From positions 1 through 47,057 of the forward strand of contig PHAM01000004.1 in assembly GCA_002841685.1 (NCBI GenBank): DNA of 47,057 nt, in the 5' to 3' direction. Below the pieces are notes generated by a model. It made no database searches. It was not told the DNA's origin and saw only the letters and a program-made list of their open reading frames with translations. Source of the DNA: Elusimicrobia bacterium HGW-Elusimicrobia-2. Lineage in GTDB: Bacteria > CG03. The position numbers and the translations under genes were made by a program. Position 1 is the stretch's first letter. Each line of letters begins with the position of its first letter. Positions 19,474-23,236 of the stretch are shown piece after piece.

Positions 19474-19701
19474 ATGAAAACTTTAGCGATTTCGGATTTT
19501 AAAGCTCATGCTCTCAAAATTTTGGATAGGATTGAGAAAACAAAAGAGTCGGTAATTGTGACTCGGCGCGGCAAACCGCTGGCGGAAGTTATTCCGTTTT
19601 CAACAAAAAAAATATTGCCGGGTAAATTGTCCGATGCTTTGGTTTTTGAAAAAGATATTGTATCTCCGCTTACTGAAGAAAGCTGGAATGCATGTAAATG
19701 A
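19474..19701 (+). CDS. Phd/YefM-family antitoxin
   Basis: 75 aa: LAISDFKAHALKILDRIEKTKESVIVTRRGKPLAEVIP; SD GGGAGG upstream. Confidence 0.9.
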   Translation: MKTLAISDFKAHALKILDRIEKTKESVIVTRRGKPLAEVIPFSTKKILPGKLSDALVFEKDIVSPLTEESWNACK

Positions 19702-20096
19702 AATATCTGCTTGATACTCATGTCTGGATTTGGTGGAACATGCGCCCCGCAAAATTGTCATCCAAAGTTCGCTCTCTTATTTCATCGCCGAAACAATATG
19801 AGGAACTTCTTATTTCGGCTATTTCACCTTGGGAGTTCAGTAAGCTCTTGGAGAAAAAAAGAATTGGAATTTCCTGCAATCCCGAAGAATGGATAGCTGA
19901 AGCGTTAAATATGCCGAAGCTTAGGCTCGTCCCCTTAACGCCAGGTATTGCATATCATTCAACATCTTTGCCGCAGCCATTTTCCGGTGATCCTGCTGAT
20001 CAAATAATTGTAGCCACGGCAAGGGAAGAGAATGCCGAGCTGTTGACCAAAGACAAAATCATTCGCAAGTACAAGCATGTCCGCAGCCTCTGGTAA
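19698..20096 (+). CDS. PIN-domain (VapC-type) toxin
   Basis: YLLDTHVWIWW, GDPADQIIVATA acidic residues; ATGA overlap with antitoxin. Confidence 0.9.
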   Translation: MKYLLDTHVWIWWNMRPAKLSSKVRSLISSPKQYEELLISAISPWEFSKLLEKKRIGISCNPEEWIAEALNMPKLRLVPLTPGIAYHSTSLPQPFSGDPADQIIVATAREENAELLTKDKIIRKYKHVRSLW

Positions 20097-20231: not shown

Positions 20232-20960
20232 ATGAAGATAATGGATAAGAAGGAATTAATTCTTGCAAAAAAGCAATGGCTAAAGGAATTCAAAAAGAAT
20301 CCTGATAATGCAAAGAAAAAAAGAAATAGTATCGATAGGAAAATTGCAAAGTTATATATTTCTTGGGTTTGTGAAAAATGTGCAAATAAAAATAGTTTAA
20401 AAGTTTATCATAAATCCAATAAATATCCACCGCGTTATATTTCCAATATTAAAATTTTATGTGACAAATGCTACAAGGATGAAATTGCAATAAAACCAAT
20501 AAAGAACAAAAAAGAATTAGAAAAAGAAAAAAGCAACTGGTCAAAGAAATTAAAAAAGAATTTTAATAAATCGAGAAAGGAAAGAGTAAAAATAGATAGG
20601 AAAATTGCAATGCGATGTTTGCCATGGATATGTGAAAGATGTGGGAGTGAAAAGAATTTAGAGGTTCATCATAAATCGTGGAAGTACCCTCCTCGTGTAT
20701 TATCAAATCTTCGCGTTTTATGTAAAAAGTGTCACGATGAACTACATGTGGAAGAAAATATCTTGCCGCACATTAAATATCTAAGCAGGAAATTAGAACT
20801 TAGTCGTTCTCTACCAAAGAAAAAAGTCGAATGGATAAAAAATGCGCTGAATGCATTCTATAAATTAAAGAAAGTTGACCCGAAAATTAACAAAGTTAAA
20901 AAATTGCAGGATTTGTCTTTTAGATTGGGAATTCTGTATTATGATTTAAAAAATCTTTGA
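20232..20960 (+). CDS. tandem HNH-type protein (two 87-aa-period copies; only copy 2 has intact HNH residues)
   Basis: Copy 2: CERC...VHHKSWKYPPRVLSNLRVLCKKCHDELH. Copy 1: CEKC...VYHKSNKYPPRYISNIKILCDKCYKDE. Confidence 0.8.
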   Translation: MKIMDKKELILAKKQWLKEFKKNPDNAKKKRNSIDRKIAKLYISWVCEKCANKNSLKVYHKSNKYPPRYISNIKILCDKCYKDEIAIKPIKNKKELEKEKSNWSKKLKKNFNKSRKERVKIDRKIAMRCLPWICERCGSEKNLEVHHKSWKYPPRVLSNLRVLCKKCHDELHVEENILPHIKYLSRKLELSRSLPKKKVEWIKNALNAFYKLKKVDPKINKVKKLQDLSFRLGILYYDLKNL

Positions 20961-21055: not shown

Positions 21056-21128
21056 GGCGCGGTACCCAAGTGGCTAAGGGAGAAGTCTGCAAAACTTCCA
21101 TCCGTCGGTTCGAATCCGACCCGTGCCT
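21056..21128 (+). tRNA. tRNA-Cys(GCA)
   Basis: Acceptor GGCGCGG/CCGTGCC, anticodon loop CTGCAAA, T arm GGTTCGAATCC. Confidence 0.93.
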
Positions 21129-21179: not shown

Positions 21180-21253
21180 GGGCGGTTAGCTCAGTTGGTT
21201 AGAGTACCACGTTGACATCGTGGGGGTCACTGGTTCGAATCCAGTACCGCCCA
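21180..21253 (+). tRNA. tRNA-Val(GAC)
   Basis: Acceptor GGGCGGT/ACCGCCC, anticodon loop TTGACAT, T arm TGGTTCGAATCCA. Confidence 0.95.
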
Positions 21254-21434
21254 AATTTTTTGGCATTTAAGGCGGTAAGCAAGCCAACTGCTTGGCTTGC
21301 GTCAGGATTCGAAGACCGCAGCGATGCGCGAGTTTGCCGAAAGGCAAGGCGAGCGCCGCGAGGGGCGGCCGGCGAGAAATTTCCGTCAGGAAATTTACTT
21401 GCGGGCGAATCCAGTACCGCCCAAATTTTTGGCA
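21236..21434. repeat. tRNA-Val 3'-end duplication flanking a three-hairpin insert
   Basis: CGAATCCAGTACCGCCCAAATTTTTTGGCA at 21236-21265 and CGAATCCAGTACCGCCCAAATTTTTGGCA at 21406-21434; hairpins at 21279-21300, 21334-21347, 21377-21396. Confidence 0.9.
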
Positions 21435-21463: not shown

Positions 21464-23236
21464 ATGAACGAAAATAAATATTCTCTTGAAACGCTGAGGC
21501 ACTCGGCCGCTCATATCATGGCTTATGCCGTGCAGAGGCTGTACAAAAATGTTAAATTCGCGATCGGCCCGTCCATAGAAAATGGTTTTTACTATGATTT
21601 TGATCTTGACACAGCCATAAAGCCGGACGATTTCAAAAAGATTTCCGGAGAGATGCAGAAAATCATCAAAGAAAAACTGCCGTTCAGGCGTTACAGCCTG
21701 AAAAAAGCTGAAGCTCTCAAATTCTTTTCGGAAAAAGGCCAGATATACAAAAGCGAACTCATAAACGAGATCAAAGATGAGGAAGTGTCGCTGTACGAAC
21801 TGGGCGATTTCACGGATCTGTGCCGCGGGCCCCATATCGAGAACTCGGGAGAGCTCAGGAATTTTCAGCTGCTCGATATCGCCGGCGCATACTGGAGGGG
21901 CTCGGAGAAAAATAAAATGCTGCAGCGTGTCTACGGGACAGCTTTTTTTACAAAAGACGATCTGATGAAATATGTAAAATTCCGTGAAGAGGCTAAAAAG
22001 CGCGACCACAGAGTCATAGGGAAACACCTTTTCAGCATACACCCCGAATCGGGCCCGGGACTTATACACTGGCATCCCGACGGCGCTCAGCTCCTTGAGA
22101 TAATAGAGGGATTCTGGAAAAAAGAGCATCTGCGCAACGGCTATCAGCTGGTGCGTACTCCGCATGTGGCCAGTGAGGAGCTCTACCGTATTTCAGGACA
22201 CCTGCAGAACTACTCCGATATGATGTATTCGAGCATGGACATAGAGGGCAAGCCTTACAGGGTGCGGCCCATGAACTGCCCCGGCCACATAAAAATATAT
22301 TCGAGCACACTCCATTCATACAGGGATCTTCCGGTGAGACTGGCGGAGCTGGGGACGGTTTACAGATTTGAAAAAAGCGGCGTGCTCCACGGCTTGTTGA
22401 GGGTGAGGGGTTTTACCATAGATGACGCTCACATCATAGTGGCGGAAGATCAGGTCATGAAGGAAATAGAGAATGTTTTTGAGTTTGCCCTGAAATTTCT
22501 TTCGTCGTTCGGCTTTAAAGAATTCAAGGTTTATATATCAACCCGTCCGGAGCAAAAATATGTGGGTGAGCTGAAAGACTGGGCGCTGGCGGAAGAATCT
22601 CTCAAAAAAGCCGTTGAGTCAAAGAACATAGAATATGAGATGGACGAAGGCGGCGGAGCCTTTTACGGCCCCAAGATAGATATTAAGATAAAAGACGCGC
22701 TCGGCAGGCTCTGGCAGTGTTCCACCATACAGTTTGATTTCAATCTGCCGGACAGATTCTCGGTATTTTACATAGACGAAAAGGGTGAGAAGCAGACGCC
22801 TTTTATGATACACCGCGCGATTTTCGGTTCAATTGAAAGATTTGTGGGGATGCTCACCGAGCAGTATGCCGCGAATTTCCCCCTGTGGCTCGCGCCGCAG
22901 CAGCTCAGGATAGTGACAATAAGTGAAAAAAACATAGCCGCCGCGGAGGCGATGCTTGAGAAATTGGCTGATGCGGGAATTCGCGTTGCTCTTGACAGCA
23001 GGAATCTGAGCCTGAATAAAAAAATCAGGAACGCGATCATGGAGCATGTACCCTATATAGGAATAGTGGGCGACAAGGAAGCGGCTAGCGGAAAGATGGC
23101 GCTCAGAGACAGGAAGGCCGATGTCGGCTCCTTCAGCAGTGAAGAATTAATCGAAAAATTCCTTGTCGCCATTGACAATTTACAGCAGAACAAGATGGAA
23201 ATTGCAAGCGCCCCGCTTGACAATTTGCAAGTATGA
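21464..23236 (+). CDS. thrS: threonyl-tRNA synthetase lacking the N-terminal TGS domain
   Basis: Editing domain RHSAAH/CRGPHI; class II core RPMNCPGHIKIY, FYGPKIDI; start trimmed to ATG 21464 because the upstream ORF extension translates tRNA-Val and the repeat. Confidence 0.95.
   Translation: MNENKYSLETLRHSAAHIMAYAVQRLYKNVKFAIGPSIENGFYYDFDLDTAIKPDDFKKISGEMQKIIKEKLPFRRYSLKKAEALKFFSEKGQIYKSELINEIKDEEVSLYELGDFTDLCRGPHIENSGELRNFQLLDIAGAYWRGSEKNKMLQRVYGTAFFTKDDLMKYVKFREEAKKRDHRVIGKHLFSIHPESGPGLIHWHPDGAQLLEIIEGFWKKEHLRNGYQLVRTPHVASEELYRISGHLQNYSDMMYSSMDIEGKPYRVRPMNCPGHIKIYSSTLHSYRDLPVRLAELGTVYRFEKSGVLHGLLRVRGFTIDDAHIIVAEDQVMKEIENVFEFALKFLSSFGFKEFKVYISTRPEQKYVGELKDWALAEESLKKAVESKNIEYEMDEGGGAFYGPKIDIKIKDALGRLWQCSTIQFDFNLPDRFSVFYIDEKGEKQTPFMIHRAIFGSIERFVGMLTEQYAANFPLWLAPQQLRIVTISEKNIAAAEAMLEKLADAGIRVALDSRNLSLNKKIRNAIMEHVPYIGIVGDKEAASGKMALRDRKADVGSFSSEELIEKFLVAIDNLQQNKMEIASAPLDNLQV

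Follow-up and report, generated by a model that had tools for sequence, protein, structure and literature searches.

A miniature non-coding element at the 3′ ends of tRNA genes in an uncultured bacterial group, with inferred target-primed copying of its ends

Identification of the element

The insert between the tRNA-Val(GAC) and thrS genes is interpreted here as a miniature, non-coding, and non-autonomous element whose insertions are confined to the 3′ ends of tRNA and tmRNA genes, and whose own ends are inferred to be acquired by target-primed copying. We assign a probability of about 0.55 to this explanation as a whole. One part of it, that the insert is a mobile element of tRNA ends, is held with high confidence. 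The tRNA genes are favorite landing sites of bacterial mobile DNA, and the known cases are kilobase islands with an integrase gene. The elements described here are 100-200 bp long, carry no genes, can follow as many as about half of a genome's tRNA genes, and are missed by the usual island filters. They bear on tRNA 3′ processing and on the fast turnover of tRNA 3′ flanks.

The source genome (G000) is a 1.78-Mb metagenome-assembled genome, and the window, i.e., the whole stretch of 47,057 nucleotides that was analyzed, lies on its contig C31. The host gene, tRNA-Val(GAC), was located by ARAGORN at 21180..21253 on the forward strand (Rfam RF00005, 69.6 bits), with tRNA-Cys (21056-21128) on its 5′ side. 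The thrS gene (21464..23236, forward strand, ATG at 21464) is a neighbor and lies outside the element. Based on thrS, the closest named genomes are PEUP01 (Elusimicrobia bacterium CG03_land_8_20_14_0_80_50_18; 91%) and VMTI01 (bacterium isolate 01_128; 85%). The lineage may belong to the GTDB candidate phylum CG03.

The duplicated target is the 3′ part of tRNA-Val(GAC), starting from C56 of the T-loop. Target copy 1 (X; 21236..21265, forward strand) comprises the T-loop to the tRNA 3′ end and 12-13 nt of the tail. Its sequence, CGAATCCAGTACCGCCCAAATTTTTTGGCA, runs from C56 to GGCA in the tail, ends with TTTTTTGGCA, and is found as a single copy at the empty site of genome G003. Target copy 2 (X′; 21406..21434, forward strand) lies 170 bp downstream of the first and repeats it minus one T. 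It begins with CGAATCC and passes into the native flank as in the empty site; upstream of the T-loop, the two copies diverge. The initial annotation had described this 29-30 bp repeat with its one-T difference, 170 bp spacing, and upstream divergence, and the description proved exact in sequence. The insert of ~140 bp is non-coding, as had also been noted.

Some other features of this locus were recorded. Just 5′ of the tRNA-Cys/tRNA-Val pair, a 242-aa ORF (20232-20960) contains an HNH endonuclease domain (Pfam PF01844, E = 2e-5) and consists of two similar halves. Further upstream (19698-20096), a PIN-domain protein is encoded (Pfam PF01850, E = 1.3e-18), which is possibly the toxin of a toxin-antitoxin pair. 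In VMTI01, the gap between tRNA-Val and thrS is filled, in place of the element, by an ORF of ~200 aa with weak HNH-endonuclease-like similarity (L035:3349-4014).

Distribution of the element among tRNA genes

A blastn search with the insert gave at least seven sites in G000 and additional ones in G001-G004 and G006, with no match in 92 other genomes. A covariance model was built from 12 copies and run on 16 genomes of the phylum. It gave eight matches in G000, six in G003, four in G002, two each in G001 and G004, and one in G006, and none in the 10 other genomes of the phylum. Besides G000, the carriers are three congeners and members of two other genera. No match to the element was found in phage and plasmid collections, and no viral contig contained its long exact patterns.

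The hosts in G000 are Val(GAC), Val(CAC), Val(UAC), Ser(CGA), Ser(GCU), Met, Tyr, and tmRNA. The genomes were all assembled from metagenomes and are fragmented, with several of the copies at contig ends. Every copy with a readable flank lies directly 3′ of a tRNA or tmRNA end, the remaining ones being cut by the contig end, and each copy duplicates the 3′ end of its own host. One exception-like match in G003 (L031) follows an apparently disrupted 3′ end of tRNA-Ser(GCU). Tandem arrays of elements also occur. The initial annotation had proposed a non-autonomous element targeted to tRNA 3′ ends, and had suggested searching for multiple copies, each beside a tRNA 3′ end and each duplicating the tail of that tRNA. 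The result of this search is positive (8 copies in G000, and those in relatives), and a single copy without homologs at other tRNAs, which would have refuted the proposal, was not what we observed. The proposal is further supported by the restriction to tRNA genes, empty sites, host-specific duplication, and the lack of coding capacity.

A family-agnostic test was also performed, in which the own 17-nt 3′ end of each tRNA was searched for within 400 nt downstream, allowing up to two mismatches. In nine genomes of the phylum, 30 of 241 tRNA genes were positive, and in none of the 241 was the 17-nt end repeated upstream. As a control, the 3′ end of another tRNA was found downstream in 1 of 723 trials. 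A chance origin of the repeat is excluded. The genome G009, from another family of the phylum, carries such inserts at 14 of its 30 testable tRNAs; G005 and G007 gave none (0/26 and 0/17 tRNAs, respectively), and none of 25 tRNAs from other phyla, a small control, was positive.

Empty sites and insertion junctions

The tRNA tails of G000 and G003, and later also those of G001, G002, and G006, were compared one by one. The empty orthologous sites found in this way prove insertion. For Val(GAC), the site is empty in G003 (L271) and G002 (L034, L370), where thrS stands right behind the tRNA, and the G003 tail reads CGAATCCAGTACCGCCCAAATTTTTGGCAGGCGGCTCC, which is the exact flank behind the second copy in the window. 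At Ser(UGA), G000 has no insert, and the G003 insert comes with an 18-bp duplication ending at the last tRNA base. The Tyr site is empty in G003 and filled in G000 by a short core-less form, also with an 18-bp duplication. The Val(CAC) site is empty in G003, and in G000 the two copies are identical over ~53 bp; this duplication is local, because both copies share G000-specific changes. At Leu(CAA), G000 has an empty site and G003 a filled one, in which ~29 bp are duplicated.

On the right, the junction invariably falls at the T-loop (C56 or G57). The left junction is variable, from the tRNA 3′ end to ~35 nt beyond it, and sometimes lies within a pre-existing element stub. The insert starts at the tRNA 3′ end or slightly downstream and stops precisely at the T-loop of the second tRNA 3′ copy, and the host tRNA is left intact by each insertion.

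A conserved thrS leader or T-box was ruled out by the empty Val(GAC) sites, in which thrS follows the tRNA directly. The element is therefore not a thrS leader, and the initial annotation's refuting case, in which all relatives share it as a conserved leader, does not hold, since the sites in G002 and G003 are empty.

At the tRNA-Phe gene of G003 (L288), a different short insert (CAGGGA...TCCCTG) with a duplicated tRNA end was found; the corresponding site is empty in G000.

Secondary structure of the insert

From 5′ to 3′, the order is tRNA, short tail, hairpin 1, P1′, core stem, hairpin 2, and second tRNA 3′ part starting with CGAATCC; all parts below lie on the + strand. A spacer on the element side (21266..21278), missing from the G003 L271 empty site and unconserved among the copies, precedes hairpin 1 (21279..21300; GCAAGCCAA-CTGC-TTGGCTTGC). 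In hairpin 1, paired changes were found among the copies: five of nine pairs changed on both sides, with 100% of the cells paired. P1′ (21305..21313), GGATTCGAA here and in most copies, is antisense to the host T-loop and T-stem. According to the predicted fold, it is the 5′ strand of the closing stem and pairs with CGAATCC of X′; its host matching was assessed by permutation, as given below. The core domain (21314..21369), GACCGCAGCGATGCGCGAG...GGCGAGCGCCGCGAGGGGCGG, is conserved in the 12 copies and contains a variable apical hairpin at 21334-21347. The hairpin 2 domain (21370..21405) has the loop GTCA, arms at 21377-21384/21389-21396, and an extended stem. Paired stem exchanges occur in it among the copies (8/17 pairs changed on both sides), and the loop is invariant.

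The three hairpins of the initial annotation are all present (21279-21300, 21334-21347, and 21377-21396). In the predicted fold, they are parts of one larger structure, a three-way junction closed by the P1 stem (P1′/CGAATCC), which includes an antisense T-arm copy that had been overlooked. The segment 21275-21412 folds with -67.3 kcal/mol (z = -4.6) on the tRNA-sense strand, and none of 200 dinucleotide shuffles was as good. The opposite strand folds similarly (z = -4.5). In the 12 copies, 99.3% of the pair cells are standard, and 15 of 45 pairs changed on both sides. Judged from the alignment alone, the paired changes favor this structure, although they are also what template switching within DNA palindromes could produce. 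The G-U pairs at columns 60/86 and 111/137 of the 12-copy alignment are invariant on the tRNA-sense strand, which argues for this strand as RNA or single-stranded DNA. Except for tRNA/tmRNA, no Rfam family was found at gathering scores in the window and 12 loci.

Further element families

A second family of bodies shares this architecture and was found, within the genus and in G006, at Leu(GAG), Leu(UAA), Gly(CCC), Gly(GCC), and Thr(UGU). The family-2 search gave 88 positive genomes, mostly with mere tRNA matches, because the query included the tRNA gene; matches covering the element were confined to this family. In G009, six elements resemble family 2, and their P1′ match six different T-arms; in three of them, the repeat runs through P1′ into the 5′ part of the element. 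In another G009 group (Ala, Pro, Thr), the whole T-arm is duplicated.

Two G006 elements from different families (L014, L397) share an inserted structured block (GGTGCCGGTCGCGATGAATAAAGAGC...), which resembles part of the Leu(CAA) insert of G003. For this reason, the bodies look modular.

Host matching of the element ends

P1′ matches the T-arm of its host beyond what is seen with shuffled hosts. The permutation p was about 5e-5 for family 1 and 4e-4 for family 2. In family 3, 59 of 60 positions matched, a result reached in 2 of 720 permutations, and the six hosts were nearly perfect. These p-values are optimistic, because orthologous copies are not independent, and no correction was made. The matched T-arms varied (AAATCC, GATTCCC, AAGTCC, GAACCCC, and GAGTCCC). 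We take this variety, as read from the sequences, as direct evidence that the ends follow the host.

The bodies behave differently from the ends: they group neither by tRNA nor by genome, and both ends always match the local tRNA. The body at Ser(CGA) of G000 and that at Val(UAC) of G003 are 94.4% similar, more than the two bodies of the Ser(CGA) pair (89.4%). Other similarities across tRNAs are 90.2% (Val(GAC) of G000 and Met of G001) and 89.9% (Met of G000 and Tyr of G001). As the most similar bodies are often at different tRNAs in different genomes, the body moves between tRNAs, with both ends fitted to the new host. The initial annotation had also considered an att-type scar. This became less likely, since a tRNA-specific attachment site leaves the similarity of bodies across tRNAs unexplained.

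In the tmRNA copy, P1′ is GGCGGGA-TTCGAA, compared with GGCGGGA-GTCGAA in the antisense of the target. It thus consists of the target stem and the element's own TTCGAA, which tmRNA lacks, as terminal extension predicts. This is the sharpest single hint of end copying, and it rests on one case.

Proposed mechanism and alternative explanations

The junctions and the host-matched ends together are best explained by copying primed at the palindromic T-loop sequence TTCGAA. Target-primed copying is the best mechanism that we can propose, but only tentatively, as it is inferred without data on transcription, activity, or an enzyme. The folded element, either RNA or a single DNA strand, would end in CGA(A) and anneal to the T-loop of a new tRNA gene at its near-universal TTCGAA, where it would prime the target or be primed by it. 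The T-arm, the acceptor, and part of the tail of the target would be copied onto the 3′ end of the element to give the second tRNA end, and the other end would obtain a short antisense copy of the T-stem, that is, P1′. The outcome would be SINE-like, with an enzyme supplied in trans that may recognize the folded body. If it is true that both ends are copied from the target, we could match this mode of movement to no described system, and a new insertion should carry the sequence of the new tRNA at both ends. Against simple priming, some duplications reach the element's own 5′ part (67 bp at Lys of G009 and 63 bp at tmRNA), which it does not predict.

No enzyme linked to the element was found. 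In eight assemblies, no RVT_1 protein was detected in a search for a reverse transcriptase; multicopy introns often drop out of metagenome bins. At the end of contig C78 of G000, a weak match to the 5′ end of a group II intron (GTGCGCC..., Rfam RF02005, E = 4.6e-4; L005:1670-1779/L339:1392-1451) begins only a few bases into the gene that follows the tRNA-Met element, just past the start codon. The contig ends there, and the reverse transcriptase of this intron is missing from the bin. The weak match beside the Met copy hints that a reverse transcriptase may lie outside the bin. An autonomous relative was not found either: no second tRNA-end copy was observed beyond 250 nt except for a tandem repeat at Pro(CGG) of G009, and no distant copy enclosing genes was present within 1.5 kb. 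It is possible, although less likely than not, that these short structured elements form a new class of bacterial selfish nucleic acid. Such elements would spread among tRNA genes by adding a copied piece of each new host tRNA to both of their ends, an antisense T-arm on one side and the T-arm plus acceptor on the other, with the tRNA kept functional and the closing stem re-formed from the sequence of the new host; several body families of this architecture are present in one candidate phylum.

Among the alternatives, a cryptic satellite of tyrosine-recombinase islands survives best, although we consider it unlikely. Here, the attachment site would be the T-loop, attP would contain the tRNA 3′ end, the integrase would act in trans, and the repeats would be attL and attR. 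The junction layout, from the T-loop to the tRNA 3′ end with the native flank behind the displaced copy, is indeed that of tDNA islands, and T-loop attachment is documented for phage Ms6 (PMC1762012; PMC4383910). Tandem arrays occur, and every genome tested has one to four tyrosine recombinases. Nearly all of these in the genus are, however, of about 290-320 aa, which is the size of XerC/XerD. Moreover, near-identical bodies are found at at least 10 different tRNAs, each with a matching identity block, and which tRNA they occupy does not predict their similarity; insertion of a body with a mismatched attP would disrupt tRNAs that are mostly single-copy. P1′ also remains unexplained.

It is rather improbable that the element is a REPIN-like single-stranded DNA moved by a Y1 (HUH/RAYT-type) transposase, with P1′ as a guide pairing with the T-arm. 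In IS200/IS605, a guide pairs with the cleavage site, which is comparable to the proposed P1′/T-arm pairing. The element has hairpins beside a target-complementary strand, its Tyr form, which lacks the core, is similar to fused palindromes that have been reported for REPINs, and Y1 transposase genes are present in the carriers G000-G004 and missing from the element-free G005. G006 has elements without a Y1 match, and G007 has Y1 without elements. No element-like repeats flank the Y1 genes at six Y1 loci, and we know of no target duplications of 18-60 bp in this transposase family.

We also doubt that the inserts arose without dedicated mobility, with the palindromic sequence spread by template switching or ectopic gene conversion at the TTCGAATCC T-arm common to tRNA loci, during replication or repair. 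All right junctions do lie in sequence common to most tRNA genes, the host-matched P1′ and perfect hairpins fit quasipalindrome correction, and the duplication length varies. What speaks against such events is the large number of copies (in G009, 14 of the 30 testable tRNAs), the recent gain and loss between species, the confinement to some lineages, and the conserved, unrelated-looking cores with invariant G-U pairs.

A non-mobile functional RNA (a tRNA 3′ trailer or thrS leader) would fit a fold that is stable, conserved, and sense-oriented downstream of tRNA genes, but it is already contradicted by the empty sites, i.e., by presence and absence at orthologous tRNAs of congeners, and by differing neighbor genes and the lack of an Rfam family match, and we set it aside as very improbable.

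Comparison with known mobile elements

The element shares with tyrosine-integrase tDNA islands the tRNA 3′ half as a target, the boundary at the T-loop, the intact tRNA, tandem arrays, the use of tmRNA, and a displaced tRNA 3′-end copy in direct orientation downstream. It differs in its size of 100-200 bp and in the absence of an integrase or any other gene. One body family is found at Val, Ser, Met, Tyr, and tmRNA instead of having the identity block of a single-tRNA attP, and the element contains a host-matched antisense T-arm. In phage Ms6, the attachment is in the T-loop of tRNA-Ala, which matches the attP core (PMC1762012). In Islander, island candidates below 2 kb or without an integrase are discarded (PMC4383910), so such elements would be filtered out.

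Like REPINs/RAYT (PMC3116915), the elements are short, hairpin-forming, non-coding repeats, presumed to be mobilized in trans, with tandem copies. REPINs are scattered in extragenic regions, whereas the element is restricted to tRNAs and has long target duplications, and no repeats were found beside Y1 genes (six Y1 loci). Bacterial MITEs and small repeats (e.g., YPAL/RU-2) are similar in being below 200 bp, non-coding, folding, and multicopy, with empty sites and target duplications, which vary from 3 to 26 bp in YPAL (PMC2229807). Unlike these, the element is tRNA-specific and lacks fixed transposon termini; its ends are local target sequence, its inverted ends (P1′/CGAATCC) follow the host tRNA, and no autonomous partner was found. 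We place it among the miniature non-autonomous mobile elements, as a new form, and outside the islands, REPINs, and MITE-like repeats. No description of such elements was found in the published literature, although most subscription journals were not covered.

The eukaryotic SINEs and tRNA-targeted non-LTR retrotransposons have a precise 3′ junction, a variable 5′ junction, variable target duplications, and a structured RNA-like body, and the element is alike in this. It differs in being bacterial, in having no oligo(A), and in that no reverse transcriptase was found in the eight assemblies.

Other repeats and remnants at tRNA tails

In G009 (L449, L453, L460, L463, L466), many tRNA genes are followed by hairpins whose first bases are the CCA (CCATGAACCACGTGGGGTTCATGG and variants); these may be a further tRNA-linked repeat. 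In G000, converging ORF remnants with weak similarity to a PHROG integrase (phrog_95, E about 4e-4) were found 3′ of tRNA-Pro and tRNA-Ser (L331:62-613 (-) and L333:327-737 (-)); they look like a separate phenomenon. A tail motif, AATTTCGGTGAGCxxxGCTCACC, is common to Ala, Leu, and Pro tRNAs of several genomes and suggests larger tRNA-integrated elements.
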